Shown piece after piece: positions 746 through 54,546 of a stretch of 54,546 bases of DNA (the stretch's first letter is position 1; each line of letters opens with the position of its first letter). This DNA comes from a virus. Made by a program: the position numbers and the translations under genes. The notes below the pieces were generated by a model. It made no database searches, was not told the DNA's origin, and was given only the letters and a program-made list of their open reading frames with translations. The stretch is taken from IMG/VR virus record IMGVR_UViG_3300032562_000035, positions 1 to 54,546 of that record; one strand, 5' to 3'.

Positions 746-1882
746 TCAATACAGGGGTCGGGATTTACGATCATTCCTCAAATTACGGTAACCGATACGC
801 TTCCCTTCTTTAATTCCATCTTCCCTAGCGCGGGTCAGTGAATCCAGGATCATATCAGATTCAAATCCACTGGGATCTAGTCCCAGGATGTCCACTAGTT
901 CAGCTAATTCCGTATCAATTACTGAAATGGTAGTATCAGCAATTTTGCAAATACCCTGATACGAATAGTCATGACTGGGAGCCGATTTAGGATAATACCA
1001 GTCTTTCTTCTCCCAGGTATAACCATAGGTTGATAGGCCATTATAATCAGAGGATGTATCAGGACCTTCACAAGGTAGTGACTCCCAATCTAGTTTAATG
1101 CATTTATCCCTTAATTCGCTGTAGTATCCATAATCCAATGTTTCCTTGGGTCCATGGTTACTAGCATAGCCAATTGATATATTCACTATTTCTTGAATCT
1201 GCCCTTGGAATTCAGAGTTATCTGTATAGGTCCCGCAGTCCCAGGTATGTCCCATGTCTAGTCGGCTAGAAAGCTCACTAACGAAAGCTTTGGATGCCAA
1301 AGTACCACAAAATTGCTCTCCGCAAATGTCTTTTGTACCTTTGCGATCAAAAGCAATGCACCTTTTAACACCTTTAATCATATGCTTCATTTTTGTAGCG
1401 GCGTATTTTCCCCCCGATCCACCTTTTTCCTCATTCTGGGAGAACAGGTATAACGCTGGGATGTTTGCCTCAATCATGCATCCCAGTAGGCCAATACCTG
1501 CCCCATCATCTGCCCCTAATACAGTGGATCCATCTGTATTTACAATCCCGTCCAGTCCCATATATATATCAATAGAACCATCTTCGGTTTCAACCGTATC
1601 TAGGTGAGCTTGAAACATCGTGGATTGATCCTCTGGATTGGTCCTAGTGTCAATCCATAAATTACCCTCCAAATCGCGGGATATGGATCTAGCCTTTACG
1701 CTTTCCCCTAGGCCCTGGAGTACATCCATAACAGTCTGGATCCCATTCCCCCCATGGGGACGCTTGGTTCTCAGCGTGAGCCACAGGACCGGTTCATCGT
1801 TGATCCCCGGGTAGCGGTCTTCAATCGCTTTAGCGATTATCCTGGGGGATGATTCATTGGCGTCATTAATTCTAGCATTCAT
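746..1882 (-). CDS. M20/M28/M42-type zinc exopeptidase
   Basis: A 378-aa protein with the ligand series of the co-catalytic zinc peptidase superfamily that contains tripeptide aminopeptidases. H93 and D95 are in 'AHLDTV', D125-D126 in 'GADDGAG', the E151-E152 pair in 'NEEKGG', D179 in 'FDRKG', and H243 in 'NHGPKETLD'. All expected ligands are present, so an active metallopeptidase on small peptides is likely. It is cytoplasmic, with no signal peptide. The start has a GGAG site. It is the last gene of an AT-richer leftward operon (from 3804) with codon use unlike the late genes. A metabolic-type peptidase is not a standard phage gene. Its substrate is unknown. Confidence 0.8.
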   Translation of the reverse strand: MNARINDANESSPRIIAKAIEDRYPGINDEPVLWLTLRTKRPHGGNGIQTVMDVLQGLGESVKARSISRDLEGNLWIDTRTNPEDQSTMFQAHLDTVETEDGSIDIYMGLDGIVNTDGSTVLGADDGAGIGLLGCMIEANIPALYLFSQNEEKGGSGGKYAATKMKHMIKGVKRCIAFDRKGTKDICGEQFCGTLASKAFVSELSSRLDMGHTWDCGTYTDNSEFQGQIQEIVNISIGYASNHGPKETLDYGYYSELRDKCIKLDWESLPCEGPDTSSDYNGLSTYGYTWEKKDWYYPKSAPSHDYSYQGICKIADTTISVIDTELAELVDILGLDPSGFESDMILDSLTRAREDGIKEGKRIGYRNLRNDRKSRPLY

Positions 1883-1904
1883 TGGTTTATCTCCGGTTTA
1901 GTGT

Positions 1905-1934
1905 GGTTTGGTTTGGTTTGGTTTGGTTTGGTTT
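1905..1934. repeat. Pentanucleotide tandem repeat (GGTTT)6
   Basis: Six perfect GGTTT units (AAACC on the coding strand) lie between the stop of the 481-aa gene and the peptidase start, immediately upstream of the peptidase ribosome site at about 1890-1894. Such tracts can change length by slippage, so this one could alter spacing or structure ahead of the peptidase. It is outside coding sequence and would not shift a frame. Confidence 0.9.
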
Positions 1935-1941
1935 AGGCTAT

Positions 1942-3387
1942 TTAGTCGACTTCAGTCACTGGGATACTGTCGATATTGGTTACCCTCAAGACAGTGTTAT
2001 TCAACCGATTAAATCTAGCTGTCACGCCAGTATCCCATCTGACCCTAAAGATATTGTCGTCAATAATACCGTATACGGTTCCCATGACATTTACAGGTTG
2101 GCTCTCATTATAACATTCATACATTTGGTCATCATGCATAACGACCCGATCATTAAGTGTAGGCATCAAACTATTATATGATTCTCCATGCCCAAGCTGA
2201 TATGCAAGCCGGGGATTATCCCTATAGATATCTTCCATCATTTTATAGAGCCCAATATTATCATCGTAATAACAATGGGTATGGTATACATAGATATGAC
2301 CAATACCAGACACATAGACACATATACAGTCCGACTGTAGTTCCCGGTCATATAACGCCCCAGGGTATCTAGTAACTACAGTGTCACAGGTAGCATAGTA
2401 TGCATCATACCGATCCAGGTATGATGCTTCCTCTTCTCTGATATACGTTCCATCGTCTAATTGTAATGATTCGTTCTCATTAATCCAATATCCATATCTG
2501 TCCTGTATCTGCCCCTCATGATCCTCATAATCCAGTATTCCGTCCGTTCTGCAAAATGAACAATTATCGCTTGCATTTGAGATAAAGATACAATCATCGC
2601 CCACTGTCCCACGAATATTATAACCATCCATATATGGGCCTAGCAAAGAGCCATTATAACGAATCTTATCAACTTTTAATCCATCCCAACCGTCAACGCG
2701 AGTATAACCATTGTCCTGTAGCCATTGCCTAGTGGCTGGGTCATCTGGCCTACTGTATTGCGTTGAATCGGTAGGCGTGCCATAGATACGGACATATTTT
2801 TTATCATTTACTAGGACACGGGAATAAGGGATTCCCTTCTCCGTTCGGATAACCATATTCCATCCAAATTTTGGATTATAAACGCGATACGGATGGGTCA
2901 TAGTGTCCCACCCATGGGCATTATGTTTAGTCATACAGGACCTGCAAGTATCGGCACAATCAAACATAGCATTAACAATATCGTCTATATTTGTAAGGAT
3001 CTTATATTCAGATTCTGTTTTATTATATGAGCAGACCAATTTCTCAATCATATGCCCCGGCATAGCGGGGAAAACCCTCGCTAAATATCCCCCAGGTTTA
3101 CAGGATACATGCCTATCTAATGCTCCATATTCAGCATTCCGGGTATAGGCAATGGCTCCAGGGAATTTTTCGGATGGATGGGGATATTCCATTGCCAGAG
3201 CGTTGAGATAAGGATTGATGATCCCAGAAGCCCAATCGAAACCAGTGAATTCCACAAATTCCCAGAATGCATCAATAACGATGGGAGAAAATACGTAATT
3301 AACCTTTTCTCTGTGGATATACGGGAATTCGATAGCTTTATCAGAAGCAAACTGTTCCAGTAGTTTGATAAGGCATTCTTTGCACAT
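1942..3387 (-). CDS. Cys-rich protein of unknown function, 481 aa
   Basis: No family was recognised with confidence. The start at 3387 follows GGGAGGaaaataaa; an upstream in-frame ATG at 3459 has no such site and would overlap the preceding gene. The protein begins MCKEC and holds further close Cys pairs ('CADTCRSC', 'DNCSFC', 'DCIC'), suggesting metal-binding modules. It is rich in Tyr, Asp and Asn. The middle 'TDSTQYSRPDDPATRQW' to 'GSLLGPYMDG' looks like a compact globular domain. It is second to last in the AT-rich operon and sits directly upstream of the peptidase, so the two may act together. Confidence 0.7.
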   Translation of the reverse strand: MCKECLIKLLEQFASDKAIEFPYIHREKVNYVFSPIVIDAFWEFVEFTGFDWASGIINPYLNALAMEYPHPSEKFPGAIAYTRNAEYGALDRHVSCKPGGYLARVFPAMPGHMIEKLVCSYNKTESEYKILTNIDDIVNAMFDCADTCRSCMTKHNAHGWDTMTHPYRVYNPKFGWNMVIRTEKGIPYSRVLVNDKKYVRIYGTPTDSTQYSRPDDPATRQWLQDNGYTRVDGWDGLKVDKIRYNGSLLGPYMDGYNIRGTVGDDCIFISNASDNCSFCRTDGILDYEDHEGQIQDRYGYWINENESLQLDDGTYIREEEASYLDRYDAYYATCDTVVTRYPGALYDRELQSDCICVYVSGIGHIYVYHTHCYYDDNIGLYKMMEDIYRDNPRLAYQLGHGESYNSLMPTLNDRVVMHDDQMYECYNESQPVNVMGTVYGIIDDNIFRVRWDTGVTARFNRLNNTVLRVTNIDSIPVTEVD

Positions 3388-3388
3388 T

Positions 3389-3676
3389 TTATTTTCCTCC
3401 CATGGCATATGAACTAAGGACGTTGATAGCGAGGATTGACATAGGCATGTCATCCCCATACAGGGAGATATTCCGGGCTGATTTGGCGATTAAACGAAGC
3501 TGCTTATTCAGCATTGCGTCAATGGTTCGATATGTAGTATCGGCATCAAATGAGGCTAGAGCTTGACGGTAGGCCAGTTCAAATTGGATATGAATTTGAT
3601 AGGCGTAAAGGGAAGAATCCATAGCCATCGCTGCGGCTGGGATGGCCCTAGAGGACGTGTTAGCGATTCTAGGCAT
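3389..3676 (-). CDS. Unknown 95-aa helical protein
   Basis: The start at 3676 is set by GGGAGGtaacaatc. The longer ORF from 3763 would run through the upstream small gene. The protein is mostly helical and alanine-rich, with 'YQIHIQFELAYRQALASF' in the middle and no membrane segment or known motif. Its stop is one base before the next start, and its ribosome site overlaps the end of the 40-aa gene, so translation is probably coupled. Function unknown. Confidence 0.65.
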   Translation of the reverse strand: MPRIANTSSRAIPAAAMAMDSSLYAYQIHIQFELAYRQALASFDADTTYRTIDAMLNKQLRLIAKSARNISLYGDDMPMSILAINVLSSYAMGGK

Positions 3677-3681
3677 GATTG

Positions 3682-3804
3682 TTACCTCCCAAAGGAAATG
3701 GTCACTAGGATGGCAATTAGGCCTAGCAATAGGCCAAGTTCTAACTCTTCTAAAGTCATACATTTAAGCCATTGGATAGTATGGATTTTATAGTGGTGGG
3801 TCAT
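3682..3804 (-). CDS. Small membrane peptide, 40 aa
   Basis: A short ORF with a good site (GGAGGtactacc) and ATG start. The N-terminus is polar ('MTHHYKIHTIQW') and the C-terminal half, 'LGLLLGLIAILVTISF', is one membrane helix. The stop codon lies within the ribosome site of the next gene. It is the first gene after the strong promoter at 3840-3867. Small leader membrane peptides in phage accessory operons may affect the host envelope; here that is inference only. Confidence 0.6.
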   Translation of the reverse strand: MTHHYKIHTIQWLKCMTLEELELGLLLGLIAILVTISFGR

Positions 3805-3839
3805 GGTAGTACCTCCGACAGGCTGGATCGCCTAAGCAC

Positions 3840-3867
3840 ATTATAGGCCCAGTGTGCCGAATGTCTA
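3840..3867 (-). promoter_or_regulatory. Leftward sigma70-type promoter with operator-like spacer
   Basis: On the minus strand: -35 TAGACA, a 16-bp spacer, and a perfect -10 TATAAT. The spacer holds GGCACACTGGGCC, one mismatch from the GGCA-N5-TGCC palindrome. Transcription would start near 3833 and read the 40-aa, 95-aa, 481-aa and peptidase genes. The spacer closely resembles that of the promoter at 54283-54310. Confidence 0.75.
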
Positions 3868-5005
3868 TCATCTATTAGTGTTTTCCCTATAGCCCAAAAC
3901 TAGGCAATATTTGCCTGGAGATCCAGGTAATCCAGCTAGGGTAGAAAACGAAACCAGGATGCCCCGGGAATGGGCCTAGGATGCCCTAGGACACGCGATA
4001 GGCACGCTGGGCCATAACTACCCTCGAACAATAAAACGGCAGGTTTCCAGTATTCATGCGGTTCTAGCCCATTTTTGAATGTTGTTACATCCAATCTTCA
4101 TTCGCGTTGATATATCATTTCACCATGTCTATTTACGCTTTTCTTTTGTAGATACTAGGCAATAGTTGCCTGGCCCTATCAGGGGGGGTGACCAGAAGTT
4201 GCAACATTATATGTTTGAACATGCATAGGCCAATGGATGAATGTCATAACATGCATGTTGGAACATTGGGTTGCATGACATCCATTAAAGAGGTAATGGA
4301 ATACAACCGAAATGGAATATAGATTGGATCTACAGTGTAGAACATGCATGACCCTTCTTATCTGATTAGTAAGAATACTCTTTACACAGTAGATCAATTG
4401 AGTAAGAAACCATTCCCTGCGTGGTGGGCATAATGTGTAGGGCATAAGGCAAAGGATGCACAATGGGTGTAGTGGGGGATACCCTTTTTGCCCATTGCGC
4501 CCCATCGTATTAAAAAACCTTAGCGCAATACACTCAAGGTATATTCTGCCCAGGCGCAGCTAGACCAGGCAGTATCTGCCGGGAGATCCAGGCAAGACCG
4601 ACCCACCTAGCAAGCCGAGGTAGGCAGGATCTTCCGGGCTTGGCCGGGGTTATAAACACAAACCCGGGGGGGATGGGACCACGAACACTAGGCGGGGGGT
4701 GCTAGGGATACCCTCTCCCCAAAAGCGGGGCGTTTTCAGAACCCATTCACTTGCTGAGTTTACGCTCGGCAGCCAGGTATTGCCCAGGGAGGGGCATGGT
4801 GTTGTCGGAGGAGGTGGAGTGGGTGTCGGGAGACACAAAACGCCAGGGGAAAAGAAAGGCCTTATACCGTCCAGGAACTCGCTAAGTGTTTTAGTAGTGG
4901 TGGTGCGGGTTTGAAAAGAATTCCATTTAAGTAATATGGGGGTATGTTTTGAAATTCTAAAGGACTTACGGCCGCGAAATCTTGAAAGATAAGGAAACTT
5001 GCTTA
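3868..5005. other. Non-coding region with scattered palindromes
   Basis: About 1.1 kb without a supportable gene. Exact GGCA-N5-TGCC palindromes occur at 3903-3915, 4158-4170 and 4568-4580. AACATGCAT occurs at 4218-4226, 4248-4256 (part of the palindrome ACATGCATGT) and 4341-4349. ORFs at 4179-4505 (minus) and 4699-4914 (plus) have neither ribosome sites nor protein-like composition. It separates the AT-rich leftward cassette from the rightward RepL-like gene. Confidence 0.65.
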
Positions 5006-7165: not shown

Positions 7166-7237
7166 CAGATGAGCCCCCAAAAGAGGTGGAGTGATTCCAC
7201 ACTCTCAAGATAGGCTCATCCTAGTTCAGCGCAAGTG

Positions 7238-8892: not shown

Positions 8893-8918
8893 GGCCCCCT
8901 TTCGGGGGCCTTTCTTTT
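8893..8918 (+). terminator. Rho-independent terminator
   Basis: A perfect 7-bp stem GGCCCCC/GGGGGCC with loop TTTC, followed by TTTCTTTT on the plus strand. It ends the AlpA-like gene transcript at the boundary with the convergent helicase gene. Confidence 0.9.
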
Positions 8919-10326
8919 AAGTGTGCCCTTCCGCTTTGGCGAAGTGGTTGGTGGCACCATCGAAGTGCAACTGGAACTTGAAGCCAGCCTTCCCATTCCG
9001 GTTCTTCAGCACCTTGATCCAGGTCGGATCCTGTTCATCAACCTTCGAGACTTCCTTCTGGGTCTCCCAGGGGGCCCGATCAACCCCATTCTTGGCCTTG
9101 GCCCCATACAGAGCCAGGATCGTCTGGGCATCCTGCTCCAACTGACCGGTCTCCCTGAGATCCTCCATCCCGGGTTCCCCTTCGGCCCCGTCCCGGTTCA
9201 CTTGGCACAACAGGACGATGCAGATGCCCAACGTCTGGGCCAGGGACCGGATCTGACCGGACAACTTGGCCGCTTCGTTGTAGACACTGGACCCCTTGCC
9301 CGGGTCAGGCCGACCGATCAGGCCGAAGTAGTCAATGCAGACCATCTTGATGCCATGTCTCAGGACCGCTCCACGGATCTTGGATTCGATCCGGCTCCAG
9401 GGGGTTCGACTGGGGGCAGCCCAGACGATGACCCTGTTCAGGTGGTCCCGGTGGTCGTTCAGGGTGCTGACTTCATGGGGACCATAGTTGCCCTTCCAGA
9501 AGGCTCCCGACCGGTGCATGGTCACCCAGGAGGCAAGACGGGCATGAACCTCCACCTTGGGCAATTCCAGACTGATGAACAGGCACTTATCCCCCGGGAT
9601 CATCTCTGTTTCGGGTCCATACTGCCCCACAAAGGTCTCTGGGCGGTCGGCAGTGGTCTCACAGAGCGTCTGGATCACCAGGGCGGTCTTGCCCCGCCCA
9701 GGTCGTGCACAGATGATCACCAGATTCCCGCTGGAGGCCGGGATCTCTTCATCCAGGTCTCCCACTCCGAAGTAGGCAAGTTTTGCCGAGTTGGGATCGA
9801 CCGCGAACCGTTCGTGGGACGCAACCCTCTCCATGATCTCATCCCCGCAGGGGGTAGGGGCATCATCACCCCCAGCCATGATGTCCAGGGCCTCCCGGGC
9901 CGCTTCGTAGATGATCTCCTGGTGGTTCTCCATGGGGTTGGCGGCCTTTTCGGCAGCGATGGAGAATACCCTGACCGCTTCCCTCCGGTGGAACAGATCG
10001 ACCAACCGCTTGCCCATGGGGATCGGGTCCCCGATGTATTTGATATTCTCAAAGGAAGCACTGTATTCACCCAGTTCCTTGGTGTTCTTGATGATCCCCA
10101 TGGCTCTGAGTTCCCCCAGGATCAACTGGAACTCAGGGCAAGTGCCACCATTCACTAGATTCTTCATGGCCTTGAACCAGTTCCGGGTCATCGGGAAACC
10201 AAGGGCCTCCACGGGGACCAGACTGAGGGCCTGATGCCCATCTGCCGCCCCGGCTTGGAGCGAGTCCATGACCGCATAGACGAAATCCTTTTCGGCGCTC
10301 TCATCGAACAGCCCTTCGTAGTTCAC
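8917..10326 (-). CDS. Replicative DnaB-like helicase
   Basis: A 469-aa RecA-fold helicase. Walker A 'ARPGRGKT' at about 207-214, Walker B 'CIDYFG' at about 330-335, and 'CQVNRDG' at about 374-380 match the DnaB family. An N-terminal helical domain precedes, and 'GDLDEEIPASSGNLVII' gives the domain entry. The length is near DnaB (about 470 aa). The GTG start at 10326 follows AGGAGG and overlaps the stop of the upstream gene (GTGA), which decides against longer upstream starts. It is co-transcribed with the DUF1376 protein, the usual initiator/loader-plus-helicase pairing, and would unwind DNA for host polymerase. A GGCA-N5-TGCC palindrome lies inside at 9775-9787. Confidence 0.9.
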   Translation of the reverse strand: MNYEGLFDESAEKDFVYAVMDSLQAGAADGHQALSLVPVEALGFPMTRNWFKAMKNLVNGGTCPEFQLILGELRAMGIIKNTKELGEYSASFENIKYIGDPIPMGKRLVDLFHRREAVRVFSIAAEKAANPMENHQEIIYEAAREALDIMAGGDDAPTPCGDEIMERVASHERFAVDPNSAKLAYFGVGDLDEEIPASSGNLVIICARPGRGKTALVIQTLCETTADRPETFVGQYGPETEMIPGDKCLFISLELPKVEVHARLASWVTMHRSGAFWKGNYGPHEVSTLNDHRDHLNRVIVWAAPSRTPWSRIESKIRGAVLRHGIKMVCIDYFGLIGRPDPGKGSSVYNEAAKLSGQIRSLAQTLGICIVLLCQVNRDGAEGEPGMEDLRETGQLEQDAQTILALYGAKAKNGVDRAPWETQKEVSKVDEQDPTWIKVLKNRNGKAGFKFQLHFDGATNHFAKAEGHT

Positions 10327-11066
10327 ACTGCCTCCTGATGGGTGATGCGCTCTCGCGCTTGTGACAGATAATCCAGCCAGACCTTCTGGGGTCCCAGGAA
10401 GGTAGCCAAGGCTTTCACATACCGCTTGGTCTTCGCCATGTCCTGGGTATACAGGAAGGCGCACATGGCGAGTTCCTCCCCGTTGGCTTCCCTGGTCTTC
10501 AAGGTTCTCTCGTAGAGAGAACGGACCTTGGTGCTGGAGGTGTAGGGTGCTGACGAACCATCGTATTGCTTCCTGGGCCACACCTCACAGAGCCTTGAAA
10601 CCCAGACATCTACAGCACCGTCAGGTGCGGCTTTTGACATATCTTTTTCTATACTCTTCTCTTCTCTTCTATATGGCATGTGCTTAGCACTTGCTAGCAC
10701 TTGCTTAGCACTTGCTATAGATGTAGATCTGGCGCGGCCTCCAGAGGCACCTGCAAACTTGCGAGATACCCTCTCTTTATCTTTTTCAGTACGTTCCGTG
10801 TTGAGCCGTTCATTAACAAGTCGCCCAGGAAGGATCTCAATGAAGCACTTGCTTAGCACTTGCCAAGCACTTGCCATAACCTCTTCGGGGCACCCACAGA
10901 TGTCGGCAAGTTTTGCCTGGTCGTTGGGGATGCACCCTTCAGCCCAGCATTCATCCAGGAGATCCCGGTAGAGTCCCCGTTGGATGTAGGTCATGCGTTG
11001 CACGGTACGGCTGGCCCGGAAATCCTGCCAGAACCATTTGTAGTAGGGTAAGGGCGGTAGGGTCAT
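10323..11066 (-). CDS. DUF1376 replication protein carrying an internal origin
   Basis: A 247-aa protein. Residues 1-60 ('PLPYYKWFWQDF', 'YIQRGLYRDLLDECWAEG') are a clear DUF1376 domain, found in phage replication proteins next to DnaB-like helicases. The middle is basic and low-complexity. The C-terminus ('CEVWPRKQYDGSSAPYTS') looks like a helicase-interaction domain. The start is placed at 11066, before MTLPPLPYY; its ribosome site is weak, and a GTG at 11123 is possible. Two groups of phased 9-bp repeats and an AT-rich tract lie inside the gene, as in lambda O. It probably binds these and loads the helicase. Confidence 0.8.
   Translation of the reverse strand: MTLPPLPYYKWFWQDFRASRTVQRMTYIQRGLYRDLLDECWAEGCIPNDQAKLADICGCPEEVMASAWQVLSKCFIEILPGRLVNERLNTERTEKDKERVSRKFAGASGGRARSTSIASAKQVLASAKHMPYRREEKSIEKDMSKAAPDGAVDVWVSRLCEVWPRKQYDGSSAPYTSSTKVRSLYERTLKTREANGEELAMCAFLYTQDMAKTKRYVKALATFLGPQKVWLDYLSQARERITHQEAV
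10632..10874. repeat. Iterons and AT-rich tract, probable replication origin
   Basis: GCAAGTGCT (minus strand) occurs six times in two groups: plus-strand positions 10686-10694, 10696-10704, 10707-10715, and 10844-10852, 10855-10863, 10866-10874. Spacings of 10-11 bp put them on one face of the helix. An AT- and pyrimidine-rich tract (10632-10678, about 30% GC) follows in the coding direction. Iterons then an AT-rich tract inside the initiator gene is the arrangement of lambda ori. A GGCA-N5-TGCC site is nearby at 10905-10917. Confidence 0.75.
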
Positions 11067-11496: not shown

Positions 11497-11512
11497 TACT
11501 AGGGAGATGTTT

Positions 11513-11929
11513 ATGAAGGACTGGAACTCCATCACCATCATCGGGTTCTGCGGAAGGGACCCGGAGATCAAGGAGACCAAGGGTGGCAAGGCTTGCTGCC
11601 GCATGTCGGTTTCCACCTCTGAATACTGGAACGATAAGGCAAGCGGGGAGCGCAAGTCCACCACGGAGTGGCACATGTGCGTGGCGTGGGAGAAGGTCGC
11701 CACCCTGATTGCCGCCCAGGGGATCAAGAAGGGCACCCGGGTCATGGTCAAGGGCAAGATGCACTACAACTCCTTCAAGAAGCAGGATGGGACCGACTCC
11801 AAGGAAGCCCAGATCCTGGTGGAGGACATCGGGGTGCTGGAGAAGAACGCTCCTACGGGTGGCGAGTCCTACACGGGGCCCCGGTCCAACGTGAAGGTCG
11901 TTGAGGATGATGACGATATCCCATTCTGA
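11513..11929 (+). CDS. ssb: Single-stranded DNA-binding protein
   Basis: 138 aa. The start at 11513 has AGGGAG at good spacing; an ATG at 11507 is too close to it. The N-terminal OB fold opens 'NSITIIGFCGRDPEIKETKGG', then 'WHMCVAWEKVATLIAAQGIKKG' with the VKGKMHY strand. A short linker leads to the acidic tip DDDDIPF, the SSB tail that docks replication and repair partners. Length and layout are those of phage SSBs. It leads the rightward early operon. Confidence 0.93.
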   Translation: MKDWNSITIIGFCGRDPEIKETKGGKACCRMSVSTSEYWNDKASGERKSTTEWHMCVAWEKVATLIAAQGIKKGTRVMVKGKMHYNSFKKQDGTDSKEAQILVEDIGVLEKNAPTGGESYTGPRSNVKVVEDDDDIPF

Positions 11930-11936
11930 GGTCCCC

Positions 11937-12155
11937 ATGATCATCTTCGACACGGAACACCGACTGCCGGAAGCCTTTGTCAAACAAGGGCTGGAATGGG
12001 CAAAAACCGCACGGCTATTCGGTGTTCCGGTCGAAGGCATGACCCGGGAGGAACTCAAGGCTTCCGTTTGCCAGGGCTGGAAGCGGTATGCGGAGATGGT
12101 CGGGGATCTGACCAAGGACCAGTTCATGGGCAAGATCGACCAGGGGCGCAGATAA
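11937..12155 (+). CDS. Unknown 72-aa protein
   Basis: The start at 11937 has GAGG upstream; an earlier in-frame ATG lies inside SSB. A helical protein: 'EHRLPEAFVKQGLEWAKTARLFGV', then 'MTREELKASVCQGWKRYAEMVG'. Its stop overlaps the start of the RusA-like gene, so the two are probably co-translated. Function unknown, possibly a recombination accessory. Confidence 0.6.
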   Translation: MIIFDTEHRLPEAFVKQGLEWAKTARLFGVPVEGMTREELKASVCQGWKRYAEMVGDLTKDQFMGKIDQGRR

Positions 12156-12655
12156 TGCCTTCCAAGGATGTCATCACCAAGAACATCCCCCACATCGAAG
12201 GCGAGTTCTGGCTCCCCTATGAGCCGGTAGCCAAAGGGAGGCCCCGGATGGGCAAGTGGGGTGCCTATACCCCCAAGAAGACCGAAGACGCTGAGATGTA
12301 TATCAGGAACTGGGTAGCGGCTCACCATACCCTGCATGGGCCGCTACCCTATCCTCTGTCCATGGACATCACCTTCTTCTGCTCCGCAACCAAGGCTGGT
12401 TACCATGTCAAACGACCCGATGTCGATAACTTCCTTAAGCTACTGCTTGATGCGCTCGGCCCCAACAACCAGCGGCCTGGCCTCCTATACCTGGATGACG
12501 CTCAGGTCTGCGACATCCATGTCCGTAAGCTCTGCCATCCGATCCGGGGTATCTGGGTCAAATGGTCTACACTCCCTGACTACACCCCCGTTGACCATCC
12601 CATGACCAGGGAGTTGACCCATGCTGGAACGAAGAAAGCCTCACTTTTTGCCTAG
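12155..12655 (+). CDS. rusA: RusA-family Holliday junction resolvase
   Basis: A 166-aa protein with the RusA signature: 'KGRPRMGKWGAYTPKKT' at 28-43, 'RPDVDNFLKLLLDAL' with D89, D91, K95 and D99, and the 'YLDDAQV' pair D114-D115. These acidic residues bind metal in RusA dimers. The enzyme cuts four-way junctions, clearing branched DNA before packaging. The length is somewhat above E. coli RusA (120 aa), with extra residues at both ends. The start is the ATG overlapping the upstream stop (TAATG). It fits with the nuclease/ERF recombination pair at the other end of the genome. Confidence 0.9.
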   Translation: MPSKDVITKNIPHIEGEFWLPYEPVAKGRPRMGKWGAYTPKKTEDAEMYIRNWVAAHHTLHGPLPYPLSMDITFFCSATKAGYHVKRPDVDNFLKLLLDALGPNNQRPGLLYLDDAQVCDIHVRKLCHPIRGIWVKWSTLPDYTPVDHPMTRELTHAGTKKASLFA

Positions 12656-48090: not shown

Positions 48091-48648
48091 TCACGCAGCC
48101 TTGCGGAGCAGCGAGGGTCTGATGGTCGGGCACTCGGGGAAATAGCCCCGGATGATGTCGGACTGGGCGTCCCGTGCGGCGGCCCCTGCGGCGTCCCGTG
48201 CGGCGGCCCGTGCGGCGGCCCATGCGGCGTCCCGTGCGGCGGCCCATGCGGCGGCCCATGCGGCGGCCCATGCGGCGGCCCCTGCGGCGGCCCCTGCGGC
48301 GGCCCCTGCGGCGGCCCCTGCGGCGGCCCCTGCGGCGTCCCATGCGGCGTCCATCTCATCTCGGGTGGCCTCGCCACGGGCAAACCTCCGGGCGCACTCG
48401 ATGGCGAGGCGGGGTCGGTCCTCCCCGGCAGGGACGAGATGCAGCACCGCCTCGGCAAAATCACAGGCCATGAGGCGCAGCCGGGGGTCGTCCTGGCCCA
48501 GTGTGGTCCGGGTCAGCAGCCAGAGCATCCAGTCGGGGCGTTTGCAATTCGCCCATGCAGTCTGGAGGTCGGGCTGGGACTCAGCCCAGCATGTGGCCTC
48601 GTTACAGGCGTTGAGGCATTGCAGGATCGTGGAGAGTTTGAGTTTCAT
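48091..48648 (-). CDS. Alanine-repeat protein, 185 aa
   Basis: Residues 1-100 look folded ('LNACNEATCWAESQPDL', 'DWMLWLLTRTTLG', 'IECARRFARGEATRDEMD'). Residues 101-160 are tandem 4-residue units of the type AAGA, AAWA and AARD, coded by 12-bp repeats (48169-48348), predicted to form one long alanine-rich helix. The C-terminus is short and conserved-looking. Similar Ala/Trp/Arg repeats occur in phage and bacterial small-gene regions and are prone to length change. Function unknown. Confidence 0.6.
   Translation of the reverse strand: MKLKLSTILQCLNACNEATCWAESQPDLQTAWANCKRPDWMLWLLTRTTLGQDDPRLRLMACDFAEAVLHLVPAGEDRPRLAIECARRFARGEATRDEMDAAWDAAGAAAGAAAGAAAGAAAGAAAWAAAWAAAWAAARDAAWAAARAAARDAAGAAARDAQSDIIRGYFPECPTIRPSLLRKAA
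48169..48348. repeat. 12-bp tandem repeats inside a gene
   Basis: About 15 units of the type GCGGCCCATGCG, with substitutions at two positions, code for the four-residue alanine repeats. They keep the frame when units are gained or lost. On the opposite strand they create long false reading frames rich in Arg and Pro. Confidence 0.85.
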
Positions 48649-54398: not shown

Positions 54399-54524
54399 CG
54401 CATCCAGGCCCCCGCCCCGCCCCCATAGGGTGAAATTCGCGGCAATCGCGCCGTACGTACGCATAAACGAGTGCCGGTCCTGGGCCGGTCCATATGCCGC
54501 CCGGGTGCCCCCGGGGCTGACCCC
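54399..54524. repeat. Terminal direct repeat, right copy
   Basis: Identical to 1-126. Bases 54525-54544 are all C, where the left copy reads GCCCCCGCCCCGCC, and two more bases end the window. The C run probably comes from two-colour sequencing poly-G read ends rather than real DNA. Confidence 0.9.
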
Positions 54525-54546
54525 CCCCCCCCCCCCCCCCCCCCAC

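Follow-up and report, generated by a model that had tools for sequence, protein, structure and literature searches.

We analysed a candidate replication origin in a 54,546-nucleotide stretch of viral DNA (IMG/VR record IMGVR_UViG_3300032562_000035, positions 1 to 54,546; hereafter the window), in which a gene of the DUF1376 family carries two arrays of short repeats and an unstable tract. The gene (10323..11066, minus strand) encodes a putative initiator of 247 residues, which matches PF07120 over residues 7-91 (E 1.2e-12; 48.5 bits against a curated cut-off of 30.1) and falls in a PHROG family annotated as "primosomal protein". Directly after it on the same strand lies a DnaB-like helicase gene (DnaB_C; 8917..10326; PF03796, E 2.8e-33; phrog_19). 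The initial annotation, in which a DUF1376 gene contains iterons and then an AT-rich tract and is followed by a helicase gene, is borne out. Since the GTG start of the helicase gene overlaps the DUF1376 stop codon (GTGA), translation of the two is probably coupled.

Both arrays read on the minus (coding) strand and lie 200-400 bp inside the gene. Group 1 consists of three copies of GCAAGTGCT (10866-10874, 10855-10863 and 10844-10852; steps of 11 and 11 bp), and group 2 of three more (10707-10715, 10696-10704 and 10686-10694; steps of 11 and 10 bp), exactly at the coordinates given previously for six copies in two triplets 10-11 bp apart. A seventh, degenerate copy that was absent from the earlier reading, GCACATGC (10676-10683, minus strand), follows another 11 bp on, giving group 2 four cores at steps of 11, 10 and 11 bp. 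Outside the gene, GCAAGTGCT occurs exactly only once in the window, at 7231 on the plus strand. Among 20,000 versions of the gene with synonymous codons shuffled, none had more than three GCAAGTGCT copies, compared with the six observed, and in 3,000 such shuffles every 9-mer occurred at most three times. The AT- and pyrimidine-rich tract described after the iterons is present (10632-10680; 69% AT, 76% pyrimidine on the plus strand); it belongs to a candidate DNA-unwinding element (10631-10680, minus strand) with AGAAG tandem repeats at about 10654-10670 on the coding strand. Between 5 kb and the right end at 54.5 kb, no 50-bp window is less stable than this element.

AlphaFold models of the protein show a confident winged-helix N-domain (residues 8-107; predicted local distance difference test score, pLDDT, about 90), a disordered linker (108-152; pLDDT <50) and a helical, poorly resolved C-terminal region, which matches phrog_270, "replication initiation protein", weakly (E 0.004). 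Group 1 encodes ASAWQVLSKCF within the winged-helix domain, reading ASA-W-QVL-SKC, and group 2 (10676-10715) encodes the linker peptide ASAKQVLASAKHMP, reading ASA-K-QVL-ASA-K-HMP, so that the one word GCAAGTGCT is read in each of the three frames (ASA/QVL/SKC). Residues about 118-143, inside the disordered segment, are encoded by group 2 together with the tract. The repeats do shape the protein, as had been noted for the visibly repetitive ASAKQVLASAK of the linker. The protein sequence found no relative in the PDB and had zero matches in a phage-collection protein search; its relatives were taken from IMG/VR.

In aligned relatives, conservation falls on a palindromic core, GCANNTGC (GCA-NN-TGC), with a free central dinucleotide and a spacing of 10-11 bp; this core and not the 9-mer GCAAGTGCT is what the relatives share, a point missing from the earlier reading. 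Relatives L004-L015 and L024 retain group 1 in the winged-helix domain (as a pair or triple of GCANNTGC) and/or group 2 in the linker, and the residues encoded at the cores differ (NASKC, QMPSTC, QVPSNC). The comparison with relatives that the initial annotation had put forward as a check thus came out in its favour, repeats and phasing persisting while the encoded residues vary. The tract after the iterons is also retained in relatives found by protein search. L018 and L023, whose proteins are near-identical across the array region, diverge in two of the four cores, each time at the same central base (GCAAATGC to GCAAGTGC, turning ANASKCLANAS into ASASKCLASAS): the iteron copies change together. 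Counts of exact 10-mers against shuffles were not significant in several relatives, such counts being too blunt for degenerate arrays, and palindromic-core and lag tests were adopted in their place.

A junction word, ATATAGAAG (10666-10674, minus strand; one occurrence in the window), directly follows the last iteron. All 18 subfamily genes examined, which are close relatives, have it just behind the last core, and 17 of these read it in the same codon phase (..IE..) while the window reads it in another (..YRR..). Because the word is kept in spite of the change of frame, selection on it acts on the DNA and not on the peptide. A longer form, GCANNTGCCATATAGAAGAG, occurs in five stretches in an IMG/VR scan, all in DUF1376 genes, an assignment made by matching contigs to those of other IMG/VR searches.

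The array extends well beyond this subfamily. When IMG/VR DNA was scanned blind for triplets of GCANNTGC spaced by 11 bp, at least 119 stretches came up; the same motif at 14-bp steps, which serves as a clean null control, gave two. Most of the coding arrays lie within genes for phage replication initiators. Among these at least 119 listed stretches, 83 have an open reading frame (ORF) of at least 90 residues over the array, and among these 83 listed cases 34 belong to PF07120 and 20 to PF14297 (Lin1244_N); the PHROG "replication initiation" and "primosomal" families dominate, with several initiation families recurring. Clustering at 70% identity divides the 34 listed DUF1376 genes into 18 groups. 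Within 71 listed initiator arrays, 159 of 163 steps are 11 bp, a regularity partly built into the query. Use of three frames, found in 70 of the 71 arrays, was set aside as separate evidence; it mostly restates the 11-bp spacing, and the 14-bp control behaves in the same way. A control palindrome, GACNNGTC, at 11-bp steps gave 16 matches; it is not a clean null, since many of these sit in initiator-like genes with other words.

Independently of the motif, 25 DUF1376 genes picked by protein similarity only show their highest self-similarity at lags 11, 22 and 10 (mean z against synonymous shuffles 1.48, 1.16 and 0.99, the AGAAG tract contributing to the signal at lag 10), and the 12 genes that follow them are flat in the lag test, with no peak. 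The arrays also have polarity: across 55 non-redundant arrays, 5-7 bp tandem repeats are enriched in the downstream 80 bp, where z exceeds 2.5 in 9, 16 and 6 of the 55 for lags of 5, 6 and 7, respectively; upstream, none do. AT content is 57.6% downstream and 52.3% upstream (p 4e-8, an optimistic value because this array set includes near-duplicates). Purine content does not differ between the two sides, and pyrimidine richness is therefore a trait of the window and its close relatives, not a general rule; the general features are AT content and short repeats.

Several further loci extend the range of words and contexts. Other DUF1376 subfamilies use other words: L255 and L258, for instance, have ACGNNCGT-type cores, and YdaU has GATGTTCAA. 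Initiator-like genes at L235, L243, L246, L247, L234 and L248 carry GACNNGTC palindromes phased at 11 bp, some followed by a GA-rich tract, which points to a general grammar rather than a general word. Another putative initiator family (L123/L127, L137, L154, L194 and L224), with an FRQQ-R-K-SK-P motif before the array and no Pfam name at the threshold used, has up to about eleven GCANNTGC cores in its linker (L194). Some arrays of GCAAATGC with 11-bp spacing lie outside long ORFs (L119, L144, L157, L196, L207 and further viral contigs of marine origin) and are followed by three ATAAG repeats and an AT-rich stretch; these look like stand-alone origins built on the same grammar.

The genes that come next at related loci (n=74) include 12 DnaB_C, five IstB/DnaC-like and three DnaA-like ATPase genes, and in annotated phages the gene directly 3' of DUF1376 is likewise a DnaB-like helicase or of DnaC type. 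To the right of the initiator in the window, and divergent from the initiator-helicase operon, lie genes on the plus strand for SSB (11507..11929; PF00436, E 4.5e-25) and a RusA-like resolvase (12155..12655; PF05866, E 5e-19).

Together, these features lead us to read 10631-10874 as a phage replication origin within the gene of its own initiator, at a probability of roughly 0.88, well supported but not proven. Several observations weigh against this reading. Thirty-six of the at least 119 listed arrays fall outside a long ORF, and the array is thus not tied to the gene, although these arrays are themselves origin-like in look. Some DUF1376 genes (L259, L260 and L264, for example) have no recognisable array, so that the design or the word is not universal. 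GC skew has no clear switch, its weak sign change at 11 kb coinciding with the flip in transcription direction, and is uninformative as an origin test. A literature search found no binding, footprint or replication data on any DUF1376 protein and no paper on DUF1376 as an initiator, within openly accessible literature, in which few papers name the family.

The arrays could alternatively form an operator, through which DUF1376 or another phage regulator controls transcription of the replication operon. Cooperative operators, too, are typically built of short palindromic cores at one-turn spacing, and the fold is a generic winged helix, common to repressors. However, the arrays lie deep within the gene and not at a promoter, the unstable repeat tract is on one side only, and arrays recur in several initiator families, often followed by helicase, loader or DnaA-like genes, and we consider an operator unlikely. 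Still less probable is an origin elsewhere, for instance at the non-coding repeats of the left end (613-685), with the DUF1376 arrays as a secondary or loading-control site: the AT-rich 1-5 kb region holds the lowest-stability windows and the repeats comprise three 22-bp units with CCTAGG palindromes, but no replication gene is recognised beside them and they have no demonstrated association with an initiator. That the repetitive linker peptide (ASAKQVLASAK) simply reflects duplicated codons with no role for the DNA is hardly credible, given that the word is read in three frames, the linker is predicted to be disordered, the junction DNA survives a frame change and relatives keep the cores while residues change.

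The left end and other repeats of the window merit description in their own right. The repeat at 613-685 is a 22-bp unit present 3.3 times (CCTAGGCCATCCTAGAACCGAT; sub-period 11-12 bp) in a non-coding region (1-745) that contains several GGCAGAATCTGCC palindromes and adjoins a phrog_4191 peptidase gene; it may be a second protein-binding array. Positions 1001-5000 have a GC content of 41-47%, against about 58% elsewhere, and genes mostly without family matches, and are possibly a recently acquired module. A 12-bp unit repeated 15 times (GGCGGCCCCTGC; 48166-48349) is probably a Gly-rich coding repeat, and a stretch of 24 consecutive C residues closing the record on the right (54521-54544) is probably a sequencing or assembly artefact.

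For the intragenic origin, we propose that the DUF1376 winged helix binds the GCANNTGC cores, whose palindromic form points to a dimer, or to two half-site contacts, at each core. With one helical turn between cores, bound protomers would line up on one face of the DNA in two stacked nucleoprotein blocks of three and four sites. Wrapping of the DNA in this complex could then melt the adjacent unstable AGAAG-repeat tract, and the C-terminal region, on a flexible linker that would itself be encoded by origin DNA, may deliver the phage DnaB-like helicase from the overlapping downstream gene.

More broadly, we lean slightly towards the idea that one origin grammar is common to several winged-helix phage initiator families (DUF1376, Lin1244_N and other PHROG initiators), with palindromic GCANNTGC-like cores every 11 bp across the linker followed by an unwinding tract of 5-7 bp tandem repeats; such a portable origin would dictate the linker peptide, and a swapped repeat word would re-specify the replicon. 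If the origin reading is right, the members of a large Pfam family labelled "unknown function" would be replication initiators, and their origin signature could be read from sequence alone to call origins in many uncultured phages. It would also be a clean case of a DNA signal overriding protein sequence, the origin word being kept while the reading frame changed. Since several families have the array in common, the specificity of initiators for their iterons, and how it evolves, can be tested directly.

Intragenic phage origins are well known as a class. In phage lambda, ori lies in gene O and, as in Stx phage origins, consists of mid-gene iterons and an AT-rich tract, with a replication-helicase function just downstream (PMC7466680). 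The window likewise has iterons in an initiator gene, an adjacent unstable tract and a helicase gene downstream. However, lambda has four 18-bp iterons at steps of 20-24 bp, whereas the cores of the window are palindromic, 8-10 bp long and set 10-11 bp apart in two separated groups, and lambda uses the loader P with host DnaB, whereas a phage DnaB-like helicase gene directly follows in the window. The window protein has no O-family Pfam match, and hhalign against lambda O gives a probability of 0.3%, in line with the original assignment to DUF1376 and not O. The proposal of a lambda-like origin is supported in the sense of a design that works like lambda ori; identity with lambda ori is not supported because repeat words and protein family differ.

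In plasmid pSK41, whose Rep belongs to RepA_N, the winged-helix N-domain binds Rep boxes located centrally in rep, and the origin DNA encodes the interdomain linker (PMC5703833), as group 2 and the tract do in the window. For both models, Foldseek lists structures of staphylococcal plasmid RepA (4pql, 4pt7 and 4pta) among its best matches, but the match is weak (E 0.014; VIA Z 6.0, root-mean-square deviation 3.7 over 82 residues) and tied with generic winged helices; the window protein has no Pfam match to RepA_N and no PDB sequence match to RepA, and RepA_N plasmids differ in host group and boxes. The protein is a member of neither the lambda O nor the RepA_N family.

The PF07120 member YdaU is encoded in the Rac prophage of E. 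coli, which is stated to possess an active origin, oriJ (PMC3945230). The ydaU gene resembles the window gene in having repeats at both places, in its case degenerate and of GATGTTCAA type, and then an A-rich tract, with the loader-type ydaV next; its repeat word is different and its array weaker. Lin1244_N (PF14297) phage initiators, a different Pfam family whose N-domain is related to that of DUF1376 by profile comparison (91% probability), carry the GCANNTGC/11-bp array in the linker after the domain. Together, these comparisons lead us to conclude that the window origin would work like those of lambda O and pSK41 rep, in a different initiator family and with a repeat geometry of its own.
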